Assembly: GCA_008729055.1 (NCBI GenBank)
Contig: SDUX01000006.1
Coordinates: 2,055,501 to 2,119,500, forward strand
DNA length: 64,000 nucleotides
Source of the DNA: Pyropia haitanensis
Lineage: Eukaryota; Rhodophyta; Bangiophyceae; Bangiales; Bangiaceae
Direction: 5' to 3'
The position numbers were made by a program, and so were the translations under genes. Below, in pieces: positions 4,124-61,668 of this stretch. Numbering within the stretch: position 1 is the stretch's first letter; each line of letters begins with the position of its first letter. A model generated the notes under the pieces. The model was given only the letters and a program-made list of their open reading frames with translations, was not told the DNA's origin and did no database searches.

Positions 4124-7100
4124 ATGGGTGCCAACCAGTCGTCGGTGGTCGACAAAGTTCGGGGTATGTTTGAGGCACACTGGCCGCGATCGTGGGGTGG
4201 GAACAGGCGAGGGTGCCCCGTTTTGAGTTGGTGTGCAGGCGGGCAGACAGATGCGGGCGGTGGCTGGCTAGGGTGCTGGTGGCTTGACTTGGGTGGCGAT
4301 ACGCTACCGATGCATTTTTCGTGGTGCTGCAGCCTGCGCCCTGAGCACGCGTGCCTGAAGGAAGGGTGTGAAGCTGGCCGCGGGGTGTCGGCTACGGCTG
4401 CCCCTCGGTGCTGGTGGATTCTCGACGACCTACCTTGTGCTGTGATGGCGGGGATCTCTTGAATTGCATGCTGATCACAAGCGCTCGTACTGACTGGCGT
4501 CATCCTGCCCACCCGCTCTTGCTGCTACTCGGTCCACACGCCTTGTGCACGTTCTGGTCGTCTCGTCCGCATGCATTCTTGGGAGATGCAGATAAGCGCG
4601 TGAAGATTCGGTCGGAGCGGTCTAGCAGAAAAGCTGCTGCCGCAGCGGCCGCGTCGGATGCGACCGGCTCGAGCGTGTCGCCGGCGTCGTCTTCGCCTTC
4701 GTCCTCGCCTCCCTTATCTTCCCCAGACAGCAGCAGCACGGTGCCTCCGTCCTCGGCGGGCAGCGGCGTGAACGGCGCCGCGAGCAATGCGTCGGCCAGT
4801 GCTCCCACCAAGGGCCTCCTCCAGCGGGCCATATCTGGGCGGTCTGCGCGACGGGGCTCTGCAGGCACCATAGGTTCCGGCAAGGACGCGCCGCCGGCAG
4901 CCGGTGTTGCGGCCAAGGTGGCCGCGCCGCCTGTGGCGGACGCCGCAGGCGCCAGCGTTGCGGTTCCGCCCACGGCCACAGCTGCCAGCGAGGGCACCCT
5001 CTCGGGCAAGTATTCGCCACCAGAGAAGCTGGGTCTGAAGCGCCTCGACTTTATCAACGTCCACCGCAAGGACTTTACGGGCCGGATTGAGTTGATGCAG
5101 GGCTCGGTGGAGGGCCTCGCCCCCGAGGACGAGACGGACCTGATGGTCGTCTACCTGCGGGAGCGTGGAGTCTACAAGGGCAACCGCGATTCAGCTCTGG
5201 CGGCGCTGAACCGGTCTGGGCTCTCGTTGGCGCAGCTTGAGAAGGAGACCAAGCCGCAGCCCAGTTATCGTCGTCACTACCACTGCTGGTTGAGCCGACC
5301 GCTCCCGAAGCCCCGCCCCCGTGGCTTTGAGTTCAAGCGGCTGCTGGTCTATGAAGACCCGGGCGAGGAGCTGACCCGCGACGATAACATTGTGTTGGAC
5401 ATCATGAAGTGCTTGACGACGGTGCTGGGAGGTGACGTGCAGATCAGCTCCGTGCTTCTACCACTGTCGGGGGCTCTGCTGAGCCCTAGCCTCCGCAAGC
5501 ACTTTGTCAAGGCGGCGGTGGATGTGTCTGTGGGCTGGATGCAGATGGGCTTGCCGCTCAAGACGGTCAAGATCTTGCTGCCCGAGACAGACATTACGAA
5601 GGACATTGAGACGTTTGCCAAAGTCAAGTCCAAGACCGCGGCAGCAGCCGCGGCCGCGGCTGCGGCGTCGATGGAGATCCGCCACGACGTTTTCTTCTCG
5701 TACGCCGAGGCGGACCGGCCGTCGGCGCAGCAGATGATGGCGTACCTGCGCTCCAAGAACGAGAACATCCGTGTGTATGATGCCGAGCCGCGGGAGGTGT
5801 CGGTTCGTGCGCGGGGAGTGGTGAACGAGGCGGCCATGGGGGCTCTCAACACCTCGCGCATCTTCCTGTCACTGCTGTCAGATGACTATTTCCACTCGGT
5901 GGAGTGCACAGAAGCATTCTCCCTCGCTTACTGCCGGGACTTTGAGTCCCAAGGTAACTTCATCATCCCCCTGTTTTGGCGCAGCTGCGACCTGACGCCG
6001 CTCGCGCGTCGGCTGGTGGCCACCGAGGGCGTGGACTGCCGCGAGGCCGCCTTCGAGTCGGCTACCATGCTGCTGGACGAGATCCTGTCGGCTCTGTCGG
6101 GCCTGTCGGCCGGGCCGGCGGACGCGGCCGAGCCAGACGCTTTTGCAGAGGGCACCGACAGCTCAAGCGCCGGGCCTGGGGCGGCTGGGACAGCGGGTGG
6201 CGGCAAGCTGCTGCTGGCCGACAAGCTCCTGATGAAGAAGGAGAATGGCAACAACCGGACCATGTTCCGTGAGGAGGAAGATGAGGCGACTGTTGCGGCG
6301 GCGGCGGACGCGGCTGCTGCTGCTGCGCCGGCGGTACAGTCAGCTGAGGACTCGGTGGAGAACATGTTCTTTGACAAGACGTGGCGCGAGGAGTGGGCAA
6401 TGGGCTTTTCTTCCATCGTCTTTGGTCCCCGCATCGGCGCCGGCGGCTTTGGGGAGGTTTACAAGTGCAAGTGGGAGAATCAGATGGTGGCTGTCAAGAC
6501 GTTGCAGAAGGTGGAGGACGACGACCCGCAGGCCGTCATGGCCGAGTTTATGGTTGAGATGAAGCTGATGAGCAAGCTGAGCCACCCCAACGTGGTGTCC
6601 TTCCTGGGCGCCAGCATCCAGGCCCCCTCCCTGGCCATTATCCTCGAGTTCATGCCCGGTGGCTCGCTCTATCGCGCCATCCACCGTCGGCGGCGGAATA
6701 ACCTGGGCCCCTTCCCCCTGCTCAAGTCTCTGTGGATCGCCTTTGGGGTGGCCAAGGGTATGGAGTACCTGCACGCTCAGTACCCGGTGGTCATTCACAG
6801 GGACCTCAAGTCGCCCAACATCTTGCTTGGCACCAACGTGAGGGAGGTCAAGATTACGGACTTTGGTCTCTCCCGCCTGCGGGTGGCGACGTACGTCAAC
6901 ACAGGCCCAGGCGGCACGCCCGAGTGGATGGCACCGGAGCTGCTGCGCCAAGATCCGTTTGACGAGCAGAGCGACGTCTTCTCCTTTGGCGTCATCCTGT
7001 GGGAGCTGGTGATGTGCGAGAAGCCGTGGCGCGATGACCATCCGATGCAGGTGGTGTTCAAGGTGGGCAGCAGGAACGAGAAACTGGAGCTCCCACCGGC

Positions 7101-7236
7101 AGACCCGGGGTGCCCACCAGCGCTGCAACAGCTTCGCCAACTGATTGGCGTCTGCTTTGCTGACGTGCCGGACAAGCGGCCGCGGTTTTCTGAGCTGGTG
7201 CAGACCCTGGGCACCTTGTGTCACCAGGAGCGCTAG
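4124..7236 (+). CDS. N-myristoyl-motif protein with macro-like region, TIR domain and TKL protein kinase
   Basis: Two exons, 4124-4163 and 4592-7236, give 894 aa. Exon 1 encodes MGANQSS, a good N-myristoylation motif (Gly2, Ser6), so the protein is probably membrane-tethered. After a Ser/Ala-rich stretch, residues about 178-345 resemble a macro domain (start IELMQGSV, core SVLLPLSG at 299-307, final strand VKILLPE). An Ala linker leads to a TIR domain at about 374-525 (HDVFFSYAEADRP; DYFHSVECTEAF). Residues about 618-890 are a complete TKL kinase: Gly loop GAGGFGEV (629-636), Lys649, HRDLKSPN (749 onward), DFG at 770-772, GTPEWMAPE (788-796). All catalytic kinase residues are present, so it should be active on Ser/Thr. 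The TIR and kinase calls are firm. The macro-like call is inference from a weak pattern. The start is chosen because exon 1 joins exon 2 in frame through a perfect GTATGT donor. Confidence 0.93.
4164..4591 (+). other. Intron of the TIR-kinase gene
   Basis: Phase-1 intron of 428 bp. The donor is GTATGT and the acceptor is GATGCAG, followed by ATAAGCG. Splicing joins CGG G with AT AAG CGC and keeps one continuous frame. The intron is less GC-rich than the exons. Confidence 0.85.
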
Positions 7237-52200: not shown

Positions 52201-54509
52201 CGCCGCCGCCAGCCGGCCTTGCCACCATGCGCGCGCGCGGGTGGCCGCCGCGGCGTGGGCGGGTGAGCAGCTGGGGGTCAAAGTCCAACGGGGCGTCGCC
52301 GGCACCTTGCCTGTGCTCCCGCGCTCGATGCCGGCTGACCGCGGCGGTTGCGTCGGGACGGGCTGTGCTGGCGGCGGCGGCCCCGCACCGGCGGGTGCGA
52401 CCGCCTGGCCGGGGAGGGCGGCTGTGCCAGCGGCGGTAGCTGCGGCGGCGGCGGCGGCTGCAACTGTGGTGGAAGCGGCAGCAGCGGCGGTGGCGGCTTT
52501 TTGGGGGGGGGGAGGCGCTCTGGTGCTTCCCCGCTGGGGGCTGCGGGCGGCAGCCGCCGACGGCGGGCGCGCCGCGGCGGGGGTGCGTACTACGCTGCGC
52601 CGTGCGGCCCGGGGTGGCGTGGCCCGCCGCGGATGCTGCCATCGCGGCACCCCACGTCGGGTGGTAGTGCGACGCACGCAAAAGGGGGGGGGGGGGCGGG
52701 TCGCTGGCCGCTCTTGCTTCGTCGCCAGCACCACGTCGACGGCGATAGCGCCGGCGGGGTGGCTGCCAGTAGCTGGGCGTCATTGAAGGTGAGGGCCGCC
52801 GTCTGCAGCTGGGGGGGGGCAGTTGTCGCTGCCGCTACCTCTGCTTCTGGCGCTGGCGCTGGCGTTGCGGCTGCCGCTATCTGCACAGCAGCCACTGCCG
52901 TCGCCACTGTCGCCGCTGTGACTGCCAAAATCCTCTTTGGTTGGGCTGCCCAGGCTGCGGCCGGCGGCGGCGGCGGTGCCGCCATCCACCACGGCCGACG
53001 GCACGCTTGGCCGACGGCACCTGTGAGCCGCTGTCGCTGGCGGCCGAGCTGCCGCCCGCCACTGCGCGTGGCCGCCAGCTGCGGCGAGCGCCAGACGTGG
53101 AGGCGGCGGCGGGGGGGGTTGAGCACGGTGCCACTCCCGTGGACATGGCTGGCGTCTTGGCGGACGGCACCACGACCGCCGCTACCGCTGTGCTGCGGCG
53201 ACAGCTGTCTTCCTGTAGGAAATTGCGGGGGGTGGTGCCACACCCCTTGTGCTCCACGTAGAGGACCTTTCCTGCCAGCCGTGACGACAGTTATGATGTC
53301 CACTGAGGCATGGTCACGCTTGCCGCTTCGGCCTTTGTCTTGCCGCGGTGCACGTCTGGTGGTCGTCTGGGCGGTGGCGGTGGCAGTGGTGGCGGCGGCG
53401 GTGAGCTTGACCGGGTTTGGAAACAGACAGGCCCTCTCATGACAGGCCCTCTCATGACGCTCGTGCAGCTCGGTGGATTGTATTGCAGGGGCGGCCAAGG
53501 TGCTTCCGTGTGGTTTGCTGTGACGGTACACTCCTCCCCATCAAACATGGCGAAGGAGAGTGAGCTGTGCAGACAAGGTGCTCGAATGTCTGGCGCTGCG
53601 TTCGTGCCTGTTCTCCACGGGCGGCGCCCGGTGGTGTTGCATGGAAGAAAATCAGCGGCCTGTACCCACTATCCCAGGCGGGTGCCGAGCCTGGTGCAGC
53701 CGACCTCCCTTTTGGGGAGCCCCCACGCCCGTGGGAGAGGCCCCAACCTCGGGCGCGCCATGCGCACCGAGGAGGCGTCGCTCGCCCCCGGAAGCGTCCT
53801 CTTTCCCGCGGGGTCGCGGCCAGTCCCGGGACTGGCCGGCCCCGTGCGAGCGCAGAGTGAGACGCAGCCGCCGCGCTGAGCCGCCTGCAGTTGGCGGCGC
53901 GGCCAGCCTCGAACCCGCGCCTGTGGGATGGGCACCGGCAACGCGCCGCGCGGGCCACTTTGCTGGACGGCCTAAACGTGCAAGGCGACGCCCGCGCGGA
54001 CCTGTTCATCAACTCGCACGCTACTGTGGGTACAGTACACCCGGCTGACACAGAATTTCGACTGACGTGTACATGAATTTGTTCGGCTGGGCCTCAAATT
54101 CGGATCGGTGTCTGCGCGTCCACCCGCACCGCTCTCGCCGCGGTCGCCGGCGCGGGGAGTGCAGACGCCAGAGCCGGCCGGCCGTGCGGCGCGGCGCTCT
54201 TGCGTCTGCACCCCCCGTGCGCCGCCCACCCGCGCAGGCCCGGCCCGCATCGCAGGCGTCGTTGGTCGCGGCGCGCGGCGGCAACGGCCCCATCCCTCGT
54301 GTGCACCGGCACGGCGGGCGGGCGGGCGGTCGGTTGGTCGGCCCCATTGCTCGCGCGCGGCGGCCGCAGTGGTCGGCTAGGTCCCGGTGGGCGCCCCCCC
54401 CCCCCCCCCCGCGCTTCCTATTTTTTTTTGCCGCTGGCGGCGGTCGCCCCCCGTGACCGCCACCGCCAATGCGCGGCGGCACCCCCACCAGTGGCAGGCG
54501 CGACGGACC
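48728..54509. other. 5.8-kb region without a supported gene
   Basis: Upstream of the divergent PH-kinase and apyrase genes. From 48950 to 51700 it is dominated by long C and G runs with all frames open, encoding only Pro/Gly/Arg/Ala. A T18 run lies at 51740-51757. From 51760 to 54500 some frames look less repetitive: a minus-strand frame near 51930-51965 reads CPSCKTETSKAVWLC, and a plus-strand frame at 51366-51480 reads VPLPAVAQTPTGG. None is enough to call a gene. A damaged gene hidden by homopolymer errors cannot be excluded. Confidence 0.4.
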
Positions 54510-56709
54510 ATGTCCCGCCGCTTCCGGCCGCTCCCCAACGGCAGCGCCATGGCGCCCGGCGGCGGCGGCGGCGGCTCCCTCTTTGCCCGCGTGCTGAGCG
54601 GCCGCCCCAAGGAGCGGGCCATCAAGGTGGCCGCCGTGCTGCTGCTCGCCGCGCTCGGCACCTACTCGCTGCTCCGGTCGTCGTCGCTGCTGCCGGCGAG
54701 CGGTGTCCCCGCCGGCCGCGTGTACGGCCTGATGATTGACGCGGGGAGTACGGGCAGCCGCGTGCACACGTTTGTGTTTGATCGGGTGGCCGACCCGGGC
54801 GCCGCGGCGGCGGCCGCGGCGGCCGCCACGTCGGCGGCGGCGGCCAAGGCGGCGGCCGCGGCGGCGGCCAAGCTGCAGCTGCGGAAGGAGGACTTTCTGG
54901 CCATCAAGCCGGGGCTGTCATCGTTCAAGACAGACCCGGCGGCGGCGGCGGCGAGCCTGCTGCCGCTGCTCGCGCGCGCGCGGGAGGTGGTGCCGGCGTC
55001 CCAGTGGGAGGAGACGCCCGTCTTTTTGCGTGCGACCGCGGGGCTGCGGATGGTGGGGGAGGAGGCGGCGGAGCGGATCTTGCGGGAGGTGCGGCAGACG
55101 CTGGCGGCGTCGGAGTTTCGGTTTGACGTGGACAAGGGCGCCGAGTGGGTACGTTGACCAGCAGAGTTGGGGTGGTGATGCCGGTGTGCTTTGCAGTTGG
55201 CTGGAGAGAGGGGGATGTGGCCCGGCAGGCCAGCACGCGTTTGACGGTGGGCCTTGGTCGGGGAGCAGCGCCGCCGCGGTGGTGTCACGGGTGTGACCTC
55301 TGGGTATGGGTCTCTAACCTCCTTCTGCTCCGTGTGTGCTCGTGGCATTCCCTATCCTCGCCGTCCTGACCGTTTGTCGTTGTGGGGGTGGTCGTGTGTT
55401 GCTGTTTCCATGGCGGGTTGCATGCCCTCTGGCTTGCGTTACTCGTGTCGTCCCTGTGATGCTGCTCCCGCTGGTGCCGTTGGTGTTGTGGTGGACGTAG
55501 GCCAAAATTTTGGGCGGCAGCGACGAGGGCATCTACTCTTGGATCACGGTCAACTACCTGCTGGACCGGCGGCCCGATGACACGGTGGGGACGCTCGAGA
55601 TGGGCGGCGGCTCGTCGCAGGTTGCGTTTGTCCCCCCGGCAGCGTCGAAACCACCGGCGGCGTGCACCACCCCCTCCCAGCCCGTGTCGTTCAAGGGGCG
55701 GCCGCTGCCGCTGTACACCACCTCCCACCTCGAGTACGGGCTCAAAAAGTCCAAGGCGGTGGCGCTCGCCGCGTTTGAGTCGACCAACAACCTCACCGGC
55801 AACCCGTGCTTCCACGCCGGCGCCCTGGACGTGGGCGTCCCGTTTGAGACCCGCTCCGTGCAGGTCGTTGGCACCGGCAACTTTGACGGCTGCGTCGCGG
55901 CGCTGCAGTCCCGCCTGCAGCCCGCCGTCAGCCCGTGCGAGTGTGAGCTGTGCACGTACGGGCGGGTGGCGCAGCCGCCGGCGGGGCCGTCCGAGTACGT
56001 GGCGTTTGCGTTTTACGCGGAGCGCACGACGGATATCGGGATGGCGTCGCCGCTGACGCTGGCCGACATCCGCGCCAAGGGGTCGGAGGTGTGCGCGATG
56101 GGCATTGAGGAGGTGCGGCAGGCGTACCCAGAGGGCACCGTCAAGAACGGGGTCGCCACCGACCTGTGCTACGATATGGCGTTTATCTACACCCACCTGG
56201 CGGTCGGGCACGGCCTGCACAACGCGCCGGGCACGCGGATATCGGTCGTCCACAAGATCAATGGGTACGTGTGGGGGGGGGGGGGGGCGGGGGGTCGTCG
56301 TTCAGTGTGGGATTGAATGGGCCCGCGAGGGGAGTGTGAAGACGGCCGTGCTGTGGCCTGTTGCCGCCCCGGGATGGAGCGCCACCCATGGGGTGGTGCG
56401 CCCCCGTTTGTGGCGTCGCGCGCGTGTGGGGCACCCCCCTCGATCACCGCATCTGCACGTCGTGTCGGTACACAGCCACCTCGTACAGCGTACTGACCTG
56501 GCCTGGTCCTCTCCCCCACCCCTCTTCGTGGGCCCCCGTGGTTTGCTCGTGACGCGTTGCACGCCGCCCTTTTGTTTTCCGCGCCTGAACGGTGGCCGTG
56601 TCCTTGGCACTATGTCCCCTCCCCCCCCTGCTCCTGGTCCCCGCCGCACAGCGTGGAGCTCGGCTGGTGTCTGGGCGCCATGTTTGCCGAGCTCAGCAGC
56701 CTCTCGTAG
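54510..56709 (+). CDS. GDA1/CD39-family nucleoside phosphatase (apyrase), three exons
   Basis: Exons 54510-55148, 55501-56264 and 56652-56709 give 486 aa. An N-terminal membrane helix (AIKVAAVLLLAALGTYSLL) after a basic start indicates a type II membrane protein of the Golgi/ER lumen or cell surface. Apyrase conserved regions appear in order: ACR1 GLMIDAGSTGSR; ACR2 FLRATAGLRMV; ACR3 ILGGSDEGIYSWITVNYLL; ACR4 TLEMGGGSSQVAF; the final region KING-VELGWCLGAMF, completed only by splicing exon 3. Several Cys in the C-terminal half (CTT, NPCFH, FDGC, CECELC) suit lumenal disulfides. It should hydrolyse nucleoside di- or triphosphates, for instance GDP/UDP in glycosylation or extracellular ATP. An Ala-rich insertion follows ACR1. 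There is no C-terminal membrane helix. All three exon joins keep frame and have good splice sites, so the model is firm. Confidence 0.95.
55149..55500 (+). other. Apyrase intron 1
   Basis: Phase-0 intron of 352 bp with donor GTACGT and acceptor GACGTAG. Splicing joins GAEW to AKILGG and completes ACR3. It is T-richer than the exons. Confidence 0.9.
56265..56651 (+). other. Apyrase intron 2
   Basis: Phase-2 intron of 387 bp with donor GTACGT and acceptor CGCACAG. Splicing makes KING-VELGWCLG, the last conserved region, and leads to a stop at 56707-56709. Confidence 0.88.
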
Positions 56710-57705
56710 CTGCCGCGCAACCCTTTTTCTATTTTTTCGCCCCCTGGCGGCAGCTCCCCCTACGAAAAACGCACGTGCGCGTCGTCGCCCCTACTCGCCG
56801 CCTGCCTTCCCACCTCCCCTCCCCGACCTGTTCCCAGTCGTCCACGTTGTCCGTTCCCGTCAGGCCGGTACTCTCTCCCACTCGAGCCGGTCGTGGCGAC
56901 GTGTGCCGCCGCACAGCGGCAGTGCGCTCGACCGCGGCTGGTGCCGACACCCTGCCCCCCCCCCCCCCCATCATCGTGCCCTCACCGGCAGCACGTGCCG
57001 CCGCGGCGACGGCGCCCGCTTTGCCCGGCCGTCGCAGCGGCGCCTCCACCCCAGCCAGACGTGGGCCCCGTACAGGCACGTAGCAGGCAGGTACCCACCC
57101 TCGAGGCGGCCGTGTGGCCCACCGCCGGCCCGCGGCGGCCGCCCTCCACGGGGATGGGCCCCAGCGGGCGGGCGGCCACACCCACTGGGAAGAGCCGCCG
57201 CGGCGAGGCCGGCGGACGGGCGGCCAACCGGCGCGGCGGCCGCTGTGCCCTCTTTTGAGTTTTGAAATTCAAAGGCGGGGCCACGGACGCGGGCCGCTGC
57301 TGGGGGTCGGTTCGGCGTGGCCGGCCCGCCGCTGCTCCCGCCACGCGCCTCGACTCCCCCCCCCTCCCCACCCCGCGGGCTGGCCGGGCGCCGCCAAACG
57401 CACCCGCGCGGTCTGTTTTCGCGGCGCGCGCGGCTCCATCGCGCAGCCCGTGCGCAGCTCCTTCCCGACCCGTCCCCTCCCGATCCCCGTCTCGACGGCC
57501 CCCACCTCCGCACTCTCATCCCTCCACCCCCCTCCCCCCCCCCCCACGCCCCTCTTCCTCTCTCTCCATCCCTTGCTCGGGTCTTTTTCCCACACCTCCC
57601 CCCCCCCTTCGCTGTCCACCTCCCCTCTCTCCGCCCCCAACCCTCTCTCCTCTTCCCACGCGCGTACTCCCCCCCCCCCCTCTCCTCGTCCGCCCTCCCG
57701 CCACG
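56710..57705. other. Region between apyrase and Mad3/BubR1-like gene
   Basis: About 1 kb with the apyrase 3' UTR and the promoter and 5' UTR of the checkpoint gene. Many C runs; no gene seen. Confidence 0.45.
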
Positions 57706-58704
57706 ATGCAACCCCCCCCCCGACGACGGCCACCCCCCCCTGGGAGTCGGCCAAGGAGAACGTGCAGCCGCTCCGCCGTGGCCGCGACGCGGCCGCCCTC
57801 GACGCGGCGCTCGGCGGCGGCAAGGCCGGCGGCAAGGCCGGCGGCACCCCCACGGCCGCCGCCGCCACCGCCGTGGCGGCTAGCCCCACCCCTGGTGGCA
57901 ACGCCGCCGCCGAGCGTGCCGCGCACGAGGCGGCGGTGACGGCCGCCGCGGCGGCGGCCGACGCGGCGCGTGCGCGCGGGGACCCCCCCGCCGCCATCAC
58001 CGCCGCGGACGACGCGGAGCTCGGCGCCTACACCGCCTACGTTGCGTGGACGACCGCGGCGTACCCCGCGGGCGCGTCCGCGGCGGCCGCGGTCGTCCCC
58101 CTCCTCAGCCGTGCCACCAGCCGGTGGGCGCCCACGCCCGGTCACCCCCCCCGCTCCGCGGCGGTCCTCGACGACCGCCGCTACCTGCGGCTGTGGGTGG
58201 CCCTCGCGGACGCCCGCGCCGACGCGGCCGACGTGTTTGCCTACCTCCACACCGCCCGCATCGGCCGCCGCCACGCGCTGCTGTACGAGGCGCACGCGGT
58301 GGCCCTCGAGTGGGGCGGCCGCTACGCGCCCGCCGACCGCGTGTACCGGGCGGGGCTGGCGGCGGGGGCGGCACCGGCCGGCCGGCTCCGCGCCCGCCAC
58401 GCCGCGTTCCTCGCCCGCCTCGCCGACCGGGTGCGGCGGCAGGCGGCGCGCGACGCGGTACGGGCGGGAGGGGGGGGGGCGGCCGCCGCCGCGGACGGCC
58501 GCCCCGCGGCAGTGTCATCTGCAGCGGCGGCGGCGGGGGTGGCGGCCGCGACGCCGGCCGCGGCGGCGGCCGCCGCGGCGGCCACCACCGTCGGCGCACC
58601 GCCGCCGGCGGCGGCGGCTGCCGCGGCCGCCCGCACCCGCCGCACCCTCGGCGGCCTCACCGCCGCACAGGCGGCGGGCGCCCACCGCCCGACGGTCGTT
58701 GTGG

Positions 58705-58736
<32 letters not shown>

Positions 58737-59854
58737 TCACGGACGGCACGGGGGGGACGGGCGCAGCGGGGGGGGGGTGGGGGGGGGGGGGCGCCGTCGC
58801 GCCCGCCGGGTTTACCATCTTTACCGACGGGGGCGCCGGTGGGGGTGGGGGTGGGCGTGGGCGTGGGGGTGTTGGGGGGGGGAGGCGCCACGGGGCGCCG
58901 CCGCCGCCGACGCGGCGCGCAAGCGCAAGGCCCCTCCCGGTGGCGGCGGCGGCGGCCGCCGCGGCGGCGGCGGTGGCGGCAGCAGCGGTGGCAGCAGCGG
59001 CGGCGGCGGCGGTGGCGGCGGCGGTGGCGGCGGCGGCGGCGGCGGCGGCGCGGCGCGGTTTCCGTTTCCGTTCCTCGCGCCGGCCGGGGCGGCGGCCAAG
59101 GAGAACCTGGGCGGCGTGCCCGAGCGCTGGCGCGGGGCGACGCTCGAGACCGGCGCGGCCGCCACGGCGGGCGGGCGGCTGGCCGTGGGGGGGGGGGGGG
59201 GGGGGGGGGTGCCGGCGTGCCGTTTACCGTGTACGTGGACCCAGAGGGGGGGGGGGGGGGGGGGGACGATGGGCGTGGCGGTGCCCCACCGCCGGCACCG
59301 CCCCCCCCGCCGCCGCCGCCGTCGCCGCCGCCACCACCACCCGCCACGCCGGCCGCGGCCGGCCTGACCGCCGCCCCCATAGCACCCCCCCCCCCCCGAC
59401 CACCACCACCACCACCCCGGCGGTGGCGGCGCCGCCGCCGCCCCCCCCCCCGGCGACGGCGACACCAACCTCTACGGGCACCCCCCCCCCCCCCCCCCCC
59501 GGCAGACACGGCCAGTGGCGGCGAGCGGGCGGCCTCGCCGGGCCCCCCCCGCCCATCCTCCCCGACGCTCCACACCCGCCTCGCCGAGGCGGACGTGGAG
59601 GCCTGGTTCAACGGCACCCTCGGCTTTGGGGAGGACGCCGTCGCCGCGCTCCGCCCGGGGGGGGGGGGGGGGGTTGGCCGCGTCGCCCGGCCGACGCGGC
59701 GCGGCCGCCCATCCGCTGCCGCCGCCGCCGCCGCCGTTTGCGGTTTTTGTGGACGACGCGGGGGGGGGGGGGGGGGGGGTGCCGCCACGGCCGTAGTTGC
59801 CGGCACGGTCGACCCGCCGTCCACGGCGGCGGCGGGCGCGGCCGCCCATCCGGT

Positions 59855-59889
<35 letters not shown>

Positions 59890-60416
59890 TGCCGTTTGCG
59901 GTTTTTGTGGACGACGCTGGGGGGGGGGGGGGCGGGGGTGCCGACACGACCGTCGCCGCCGGCAGTGTCGACCCGCCGTCCGCGGCGGCGGCGGGCGCGG
60001 CCGCCACGCCGGCGCCCGCGGCCGCCGCCGGCGCGCCGTTTGCCATCTTTGTGGATGCAGACGCCGCGGCGGCGGCCGCCGCGGCTGCACCGGCCGCTAC
60101 CACTGCCACCGCCCCGCCGGTTGCCATCTTTGTGGATGCAGACGCCGCGGCGGCGGCCGCCCCGGCTGCACCGGCCGCTGCCGCTGCCACCGCCTCGCCG
60201 TTTGCCATCTTTGTGGATGCGGACGCCGCGGCGACCGCCGCGGCTGCACCGCCCGCTGCCGTTGCTGCCGCCGCACCGTTTGCCATCTTTGTGGATGCGG
60301 ACGAGGCGGCGACCGCCGCGGCTGCACCGCCCGCTGCCGTTGCTGCCGCGACGCCGGCTGACATTGGCGGGGATGGTGGGGGGGGGAGGGAGGGGGGGGG
60401 GCGCCGCCGCCCGTGA
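57706..60416 (+). CDS. Mad3/BubR1-like spindle-checkpoint protein with ABBA-KEN2-ABBA cassette and extra ABBA-like motifs
   Basis: About 900 codons. The start ATG at 57706 (MQPP) joins the domain frame across the C run 57712-57721. Residues about 10-240 are the Mad3/BUB1 homology region: KEN box 1 in PWESAKENVQPLRRGRD, then AYVAWTTAAYP, LWVALADARADAADVFAYLH, ALEWGGRYAPADRVYRAG and RLRARHAAFLARLADRV, as in BubR1 TPR helices. Downstream, FTIFTD (58811-58828), KEN box 2 in AAKENLGGVPERW (about 59098) and FTVYVD (59223-59240) form the ABBA-KEN2-ABBA order known from checkpoint MCC proteins. Six more F/V-A-V/I-F-V-D motifs follow at 59737, 59895, 60039, 60120, 60201 and 60279. No kinase domain is visible, so it is Mad3-type. 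It should block APC/C-Cdc20 in mitosis. Frames change at the G runs 58768-58791, 58874-58882, 59187-59209, 59657-59673 and 59760-59779. The C-terminal end is uncertain. Confidence 0.85.
59737..60330 (+). repeat. Tandem protein-level repeats each holding an ABBA-like hexapeptide
   Basis: Two units of about 158 bp (FAVFVDDAGGGG followed by a VDPPS-AAAAGAA stretch) are followed by four units of 78-81 bp (FAIFVDADA or VAIFVDADA followed by Ala/Pro). Copies are similar but not identical in DNA. One copy (60120) has Val in place of the first Phe. Confidence 0.85.
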
Positions 60417-61668
60417 CGTGCGTGGCGTGGCGGTGTTGGGGGGTGGGCGGCCGCCACGGGTGGGGGTGGTGGGGGTGGGGGGGGGGGGAGGGGCGCGCCG
60501 CCTGTCCCGTTTGTGCCATCCGTGTCGATGGCGACGCGTGGGGCGTGCCGGCAGCGCCGGCGTGGACGGGGGGTGGCGTGGCGGCCCGCGGGAGGTGCAC
60601 CGGCGAGAGACGCCCGGCGGTGGGGGAGGGCGGCCTGCCCGCGGGAGGTGCACCGGGGGGAGACGCCCGGGGGTGGGGGAGGGGGGGGGGGGGGGGGGTG
60701 TGCCGCCGGTGTGGGTGACCGCACCCGTGGCGGCGGCGCGGCAGCGGCGTCGCGGCGGCGGCGGCCGGCCCGCCCCGCGCCGCCCTGTCCGTGGAGCGAC
60801 GACACGGCGCACCTGCGTGGACGGTACCGCGCCGAGAAATAGGTCACCATAGCGCACCCGCGGACCCGTCACCAAACCAAACCCGCCGCTGGGTACGGCG
60901 AGCAACGCGCGGCGGCCAGGCGGACGGGACCGCGCACCAACCGCCACGGGCGTCCGCAACGGCCACCCACACGAGCCACGCCACCCACGCACCGGCACGA
61001 CGCCACCCCCCCCACGCGGGGCCCCTCCCCCCCCCCCCCCCCCCCCCACCCGCCCCTCCCCAACCGCCCACCCCCCCCCACCACACCCGTCCCCCCCCCC
61101 CCCCCCCCCACCCACCACCGCCACCGCCCCCCCCCGCCTTTGACCCGCCACGCCCACCCGCAGCGGGCGGCGGCCCCGCCGCCGCCGCCGCCGCCGCCGC
61201 CACCGCGCAGCCCACCGCGGCAGACGCCCGCCGCGGTGGCCGCCGAGGGCGGTCGAGGAGGAGGGGGGGGGAGGTCCCGCGGGGGGGGGGGGGGGGGGAA
61301 CCACCGCCGCGGTAGCCCGCCGCCGCGCGAGACCGCCACCGGATCGCGGGAGGGGGGAGGAGGAGGAGGAGGCGGGGGGGTTGCCGCCGCTGTCGCCGCT
61401 GTCGCCCGTCGTTGCTGCTGCTGCTGCCGCTGCTGCCGCTGCTGCTGCTGCTGTCCGCGTTGTTGCAGCCGTGGCGGCCGTGACGGGGGGGGGGGGGGGG
61501 GGGGGGGGGACCGCAGCTGTCGCCGACGCTGCCGCCGCCGCCGGTGACGTTGCGACCGTGGCGGCGGGCGGTGGGGGTGGGGGTGGGGGTGCCGCCGGCG
61601 GGGTTGGCGGCGGCGGCGGTGGGGGTGGTGGCGGCGGCCGCGGCGGTGGCGCGGCCATGTCAAGACGA

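Follow-up and report, generated by a model that had tools for sequence, protein, structure and literature searches.

We analyzed a 64-kb stretch of the Pyropia haitanensis genome (52.9 Mb in 136 contigs) that lies on contig C7; this stretch is referred to as the window, and positions are counted from its first letter. The plus strand at 57706-60416 carries a gene that, judging by its motifs and domain matches, most likely codes for the Mad3/BubR1-type (MadBub) checkpoint protein of this alga. In addition to the ABBA-KEN2-ABBA cassette of the family, the gene encodes six further ABBA-like hexapeptides, and a motif resembling the CMI/CD1 motif of human BUB1 stands directly before them. Reading frames are given as coordinate modulo 3 (frame 0: coordinate mod 3 = 0), and an ABBA motif is called strict if it fits the regular expression F.[ILV][FY].[DE]. 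The region is GC-rich, with values of 0.55-0.87 in 2-kb windows; this composition points to a red alga, as does a partial match to the phycobiliprotein family (PF00502, E = 4.8e-17) on another contig. The features of the gene are as follows.

57741..57785, plus strand: KEN1, WESAKENVQPLRRGR; frame 0; aligned with KEN1 of human BUBR1 (5lcw chain) and with S. pombe Mad3 (4aez).
58011..58358, plus strand: TPR domain, Mad3_BUB1_I (PF08311); E = 4.7e-20, 72.2 bits (cut-off 31.4).
58638..58658, plus strand: D-box-like RRTLGGL between TPR and ABBA1; regular expression R..L..[LIVM], frame 0; a short motif and thus weak evidence.
58811..58828, plus strand: ABBA1, FTIFTD; strict, frame 2; its 84-nt segment lacks codon usage support.
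59098..59106, plus strand: KEN2; frame 1, backed by codon usage over 58882-59187.
59223..59240, plus strand: ABBA2, FTVYVD; strict, frame 0; weak codon support (2.8 vs 1.8).
59559..59612, plus strand: CMI/CD1-like motif, SPTLHTRLAEADVEAWFN; frame 0, in agreement with codon usage; directly before the array.
59737..59754, plus strand: array repeat 1, FAVFVD; strict, frame 1; its 88-nt segment lacks support in the codon test.
59895..59912, plus strand: array repeat 2, FAVFVD; strict, frame 0, backed by codon usage.
60039..60056, plus strand: array repeat 3, FAIFVD; strict, frame 0, strongly backed by codon usage over 59932-60378.
60120..60137, plus strand: array repeat 4, VAIFVD; non-strict (F to V at position 1).
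60201..60218, plus strand: array repeat 5, FAIFVD; strict, frame 0.
60279..60296, plus strand: array repeat 6, FAIFVD; strict, frame 0.
60024..60356, plus strand: tandem array of 78-81 bp units with Ala-rich spacers (Tandem Repeats Finder, 4.2 copies, score 463).
60414..60416, plus strand: TGA stop closing the array frame (end of the open reading frame 57084-60416).

The family assignment rests on the N-terminal half. The frame-0 open reading frame (ORF) at 57084-60416 (1110 amino acids) holds both KEN1 and the Mad3_BUB1_I domain. The PF08311 E-value given above was obtained with 57708-58466 as the query; with the whole ORF it is 7.6e-19. PF08311 is also the sole family that a Pfam scan detects in the 1110-residue ORF, in which no kinase domain was found, and a PF08311 profile search of the genome places the TPR domain at the same position in the gene. 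Searches against PDB sequences match the gene to human BUBR1 (5lcw, E = 3.8e-15) and S. pombe Mad3 (4aez_C, E = 5.6e-14), human BUB1 being a far poorer match (E = 0.028 and 0.033). In these alignments KEN1 lies in a helix-turn-helix context, WESAKENVQPLRRGR being paired with WELSKENVQPLRQGR of BUBR1. Of the two tryptophans that flank KEN2 in MAD-type proteins, one is seen by eye ten residues past the K of KEN (VPERW); on the upstream side of KEN2 there are phenylalanines rather than tryptophan.

The first-pass annotation had proposed a Mad3/BubR1-like gene with an ABBA-KEN2-ABBA cassette and six further motifs, five of them strict. The PF08311 match and the BUBR1 and Mad3 alignments, including KEN1, bear out the first of these points. 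The cassette is indeed found in this order (58811, 59098 and 59223), though in three different frames, and the count of six further motifs with five strict ones is confirmed (59737-60296), the hexapeptides fitting the ABBA consensus Fx[ILV][FHY]x[DE] described in PMC5179498. In total, the gene has eight ABBA-like hexapeptides, seven strict and one with V at position 1. When all six frames of the window were searched with the strict expression, it matched seven times, always on the plus strand and inside this gene, with no match outside. Dinucleotide-shuffled sequences gave practically none: in 500 shuffles of the gene, read in three frames, the mean was 0.0 and the maximum 0, and in 30 shuffles of the window, read in six frames, the mean was 0.13 and the maximum 1. 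In the whole genome, a DNA pattern that corresponds to FA[IV]FV[DE] without the Val codon GTG at position 3, TTYGCNRTHTTYGTNGAN, occurs at six places, five in this gene and one on contig C8. A broader degenerate ABBA pattern was uninformative (832 forward and 1,238 reverse matches), nearly all matches listed belonging to one satellite. A Pfam scan of three pieces, covering CMI, ABBA2 and the array, detected no families.

Within the array, repeats 3-6 are spaced by 81, 81 and 78 bp, each a multiple of three, while repeats 1 and 2 are more diverged and wider spaced (158 and 144 bp). The tail of the protein looks disordered. Past the stop codon, at 60506-60538 on the plus strand, CCCGTTTGTGCCATCCGTGTCGATGGCGACGCG resembles by eye a decayed extra array unit.

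The CMI/CD1-like motif SPTLHTRLAEADVEAWFN aligns without gaps with SPTVHTKEALGFIMNMFQ of human BUB1 CD1 (7b1f_C). It keeps S-P-T-x-H-T, the phenylalanine close to the end and the residue that matches human Bub1 Thr461. Among 104,528 stop-free 20-residue windows from the six frames of the 64 kb, 59559-59612 ranks first against human CD1 (score 30, the next being 25) and first against human CD1 combined with the CMI of the metagenomic relative introduced below (28.5, the next being 15.5). Since this motif lies directly 5' of the array, the array would occupy, as far as motif order tells, the position of the Cdc20-recruiting ABBA of BUB1. The repeats would therefore correspond more closely to the ABBA of BUB1 than to added copies of the motifs flanking KEN2.

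These motifs are distributed over all three frames: frame 0 has KEN1, TPR, ABBA2, CMI and repeats 2-6, frame 1 has KEN2 and repeat 1, and frame 2 has ABBA1. Five frame changes lie between the motifs, and every one of them crosses one or more G runs of 9-23. The ATG at 57706 and KEN1 are in different frames as well, with a run of ten C between them. To judge the frames we used codon log-odds trained on the Cdc20, Cdh1 and GDA1/CD39 genes of the same genome, leaving out the motif codons and omitting segments shorter than 20 nt. Of the 13 segments scored, eight bear motifs, and in six of the eight the best codon frame is the motif frame (KEN1/TPR, KEN2, ABBA2 weakly, CMI, repeat 2 and repeats 3-6). 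The agreement is clearest for the segment with repeats 3-6 (59,932-60,378), where frame 0 scores +22.4 vs -70.6 and -89.1, and for the CMI segment, where it scores +16.5 vs -21.4 and -27.7. The Pro-rich stretch from ABBA2 to CMI has no clear codon frame, and for the codon window 60341-60461, which spans the TGA stop, all three frames are negative. The first-pass annotation would fail if the repeats lay outside the translated frame. Codon usage contradicts such a placement for repeats 2-6; for repeat 1 it does not. The GDA1/CD39 nucleoside phosphatase gene just upstream (54381-56313, plus strand) is likewise split over two frames, by an intron or a homopolymer. The frame breaks are therefore not special to the checkpoint gene.

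An initial protein search over 7,995 scored sequences gave no match at E 0.01. A search with the TPR region found one relative among 7,995 scored, a metagenomic MadBub of 1569 residues (P0001, JGI). It shares with the algal protein the TPR region (39% identity over 80% of the query region), the ABBA-KEN-ABBA cassette, CMI and strict ABBA motifs after CMI, of which P0001 has four. Its motif order is LEIYCD, KEN, LEVYED, GLEBS-like YEQRRA, CMI, a run of ABBA motifs and a kinase, with CMI at 574, FAIYED at 661 and 823, FEIYQD at 863, FEVYAD at 944 and the non-strict FEVYAN at 1053. The sequence begins within the TPR domain, leaving the KEN1 region outside it. It differs from the algal gene in having the GLEBS-like YEQRRA and a BUB1-type kinase (human BUB1, E = 1.2e-34), neither of which the algal gene shows. 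As P0001 has several ABBA motifs after CMI, such a layout is not private to this alga.

The algal protein combines features of several known systems. Its KEN1-TPR-ABBA-KEN2-ABBA order is that of human BUBR1, and its KEN1-TPR part is also like that of S. pombe Mad3 (4aez_C, E = 5.6e-14). S. pombe Mad3 is kinase-less, and fission yeast has a separate Bub1. Like the algal tail, human BUB1 has CD1 (458-476) followed by an ABBA motif that recruits Cdc20 (PMC5472792). Humans differ in having two genes, a single ABBA after CD1 in BUB1, GLEBS, and a kinase or pseudokinase. Further ABBA motifs in repeat arrays have been described for MAD-type MadBubs of moss, basidiomycetes and stramenopiles, which by that description also share KEN1 and ABBA1-KEN2-ABBA2 with the algal protein (Tromer et al. 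2016, PMC5204127). The same study reports that many species have ABBA motifs close to CMI; the words red alga, rhodophyt, Chondrus and Cyanidioschyzon do not occur in its main text. Compared with these MadBubs, the algal array follows a CMI-like motif and resides in what is apparently the only non-Mps1 family member of its genome. The suggestion of the first-pass annotation that such an expansion had not been described is thus not borne out. Because ABBA repeats have already been reported from other lineages, we consider the array an unusual variant and not a new kind.

We also asked which checkpoint partners the genome encodes. The Cdc20 gene is on contig C11 (PF24807, E = 3.5e-128; human CDC20, E = 1.2e-138), and its WD40 domain is near the human one. 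It includes a KILAF stretch, which we take to be the Mad2-binding motif. A probable Cdh1 gene was named by eye, and a HORMA-domain protein, also read by eye, appears to be Mad2-like. The C-terminus of Mad1 is encoded as well, with R-I-K aligned with human R-L-K. The profile search of the genome returned a second PF08311 place, at C11:7399306-7399554. A kinase matching TTK/Mps1 (E = 7e-34) is encoded in the same region (L006, C11:7397801-7407800), the TPR lying ~2.4 kb upstream of it in a different frame; the two probably form one gene. Since the kinase downstream matches TTK/Mps1, we rejected this place as a BUB1 paralogue or a MadBub duplication. With the kinase of P0001 as a probe, the genome yielded no Bub1-type kinase, though an intron, a broken frame or a gap could hide one. 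The probe itself retrieves human BUB1 (E = 1.2e-34) and the BUB1 chain 6jkk (E = 9.4e-28). In the algal genome it gave three matches, of which the best (L018, E = 2.5e-6) is an ordinary kinase (PF00069) that contains HRDIKPEN and GTDEYMAPE; the other two are weaker (5.3e-4 and 8.2e-4) and were left uninspected. The gene studied here thus seems to be the sole Mad3/BUB1-family member found in the genome besides Mps1/TTK. The CMI/CD1-like motif, the lack of a GLEBS match (see below) and the absence of a Bub1-type kinase match are points that go beyond the first reading of the sequence.

How might such a protein work? The N-terminal half, KEN1-TPR-ABBA1-KEN2-ABBA2, would be the standard part of the mitotic checkpoint complex (MCC), binding and inhibiting Cdc20 and the anaphase-promoting complex/cyclosome (APC/C) bound to it. 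In the C-terminal half, the CMI/CD1-like motif, followed by the six putative ABBA hexapeptides on Ala/Gly/Pro-rich linkers, would be phosphorylated by Mps1, as in human BUB1, and would then hold Mad1-Mad2. The array would hold several Cdc20 molecules beside Mad1-Mad2, and the higher local concentration of Cdc20 would favor Mad2 loading and MCC assembly. In the human system, phosphorylated Thr461 of Bub1 touches Arg617 in the RLK of Mad1, and Bub1 CD1 and ABBA each help to catalyze C-Mad2:Cdc20 formation in vitro (PMC7614552). Mad1 bound to CD1 would be near Cdc20 on the Bub1 ABBA, bringing Mad2 near Cdc20 (PMC5472792, PMC7614552). The algal tail repeats this CD1-ABBA arrangement with six ABBA-like copies where BUB1 has one, and the MCC half is part of the same protein. 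Multivalent Cdc20 docking next to Mad1-Mad2 is therefore the reading we prefer, at about an even chance of being right. Its basis is the motifs, their order and the codon-backed frame of CMI and repeats 2-6, together with the partner genes in the same genome (Cdc20, Cdh1, Mad2-like HORMA, Mad1 C-terminus and Mps1-type kinase). From these we infer the phosphorylation, the binding of Cdc20 and Mad1, the multivalency and any kinetochore location.

If the array does bind Cdc20 multiply beside Mad1, it would offer a natural dose series for asking whether the concentration of Cdc20 at Mad1-Mad2 limits checkpoint strength, in a lineage that may have lost the Bub1 kinase. Arrays as such have precedents; the position of this one behind CMI, common to one kinase-bearing metagenomic MadBub, points to the BUB1-type ABBA as the expanding part. 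A bolder proposal is that one kinase-free and GLEBS-free MadBub serves both as MCC effector and as Mad1-Cdc20 platform, the array offsetting a lost Bub1 branch. We regard it as rather improbable.

Several results weigh against multivalent docking. Only one relative of this layout, P0001, was found among the 7,995 scored. Against the CMI of P0001 alone, 59559-59612 ranks only second (27 vs 28). PDB sequence searches with the gene's CMI reach no BUB1 chain (a 43-residue query returns two other proteins, a 26-residue query none); the CMI of P0001 does reach BUB1 CD1 (E = 0.058). ABBA motifs bind Cdc20 between blades 2 and 3 of its WD40 domain. At three pocket positions of human Cdc20 named in PMC5179498, a hand count shows that the algal protein keeps R262, has V for I280 and has P for Y279 (the text prints Y179, taken here as Y279). 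Codon usage misses the motif frame in the ABBA1 segment (frame 0 +3.7 vs motif frame 2 -10.4) and in the repeat 1 segment (frame 0 -0.7 vs motif frame 1 -3.8). A single hand-written GLEBS expression has no match in the three frames of 57706-60500, where a divergent GLEBS, an intron, a broken frame or a gap is possible; the same expression matches P0001 once. Recruitment via Bub3 is therefore unsupported, Bub3 itself not having been searched for. Within repeats 3-6, variable columns (gap columns counted as variable) make up 2/24 of the motif vs 16/57 of the spacer, a difference that is not significant (Fisher p 0.078). Replacement and silent rates are 0.027 and 0.129 in the motif and 0.153 and 0.421 in the spacer, so that replacements are scarce in spacers too. 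Recent copying alone could therefore explain the likeness of repeats 3-6.

The array might instead work in the cytosol, where it would let the completed MCC bind Cdc20 on the APC/C with higher avidity. It would then act like more copies of ABBA1 and ABBA2, independently of Mad1 and kinetochores. The lack of a GLEBS match and of a detected Bub1-type kinase suggests a soluble, MAD-type protein, and two ABBA motifs of BUBR1, ABBA272 and ABBA340, do serve MCC binding to the APC/C (PMC5179498). However, the array is not part of the KEN2 cassette, in which spacing is important in human cells (PMC5179498); it follows CMI, which is the place of the BUB1-type ABBA. We consider the cytosolic role unlikely.

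Neutral expansion is an equally doubtful alternative. According to it, the genome is GC-rich and prone to repeats, a single functional ABBA of BUB1 type was multiplied by slippage, and the added copies do nothing by themselves. The tandem units 3-6, of 78-81 bp, are recent copies, one copy has lost its leading F (VAIFVD), the 56-62.5 kb region has 39 tandem-repeat rows, and the motif/spacer comparison above fits the same account. Nevertheless, repeats 1-2 and 3-6 are older relatives, and their hexapeptides differ at 4/18 bases, three of the differences being silent and one a V/I exchange (the F to V of copy 4 excluded). A hand binomial gives ~0.03 for a small sample. The eight old-new pairs show 24 silent differences over 31.3 silent sites and 10 replacement differences over 112.7 replacement sites; for all 15 pairs of the six hexapeptides the figures are 24 over 58.3 and 13 over 211.7. 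Moreover, length changes in repeats 3-6 come in multiples of three, and P0001 also has several ABBA motifs after CMI.

Very unlikely, in our view, is a degradation or timing device, in which the ABBA copies would deliver the protein to APC/C-Cdc20 or APC/C-Cdh1 as a substrate; the motif takes its name from cyclin A, Bub1, BubR1 and Acm1 (PMC5179498) and the Cdc20 and Cdh1 genes both appear to be present, but this would leave the place of the array beside CMI unexplained. An artefact, with the repeats missing from the protein or the locus misassembled or a pseudogene, is hardly credible: the motifs can be joined only by five or more frame changes across G runs, and codon usage does not back the frames of ABBA1 and repeat 1, but repeats 3-6 and CMI each have a single codon-backed frame, family motifs are kept on either side of every break and the TPR part is intact.

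Two observations concern other sequences. In the window at 4372-7233 (plus strand), a 954-residue frame joins a TIR domain (PF13676, E = 9.3e-11) to a C-terminal kinase domain (PF07714, E = 2e-57), a pairing that to our knowledge is unusual in an alga. Elsewhere in the genome, among the matches listed, a satellite of ~689 bp takes up tens of kb at the start of contig C2 (379-64174) and is also found at the start of C3; it is perhaps subtelomeric.

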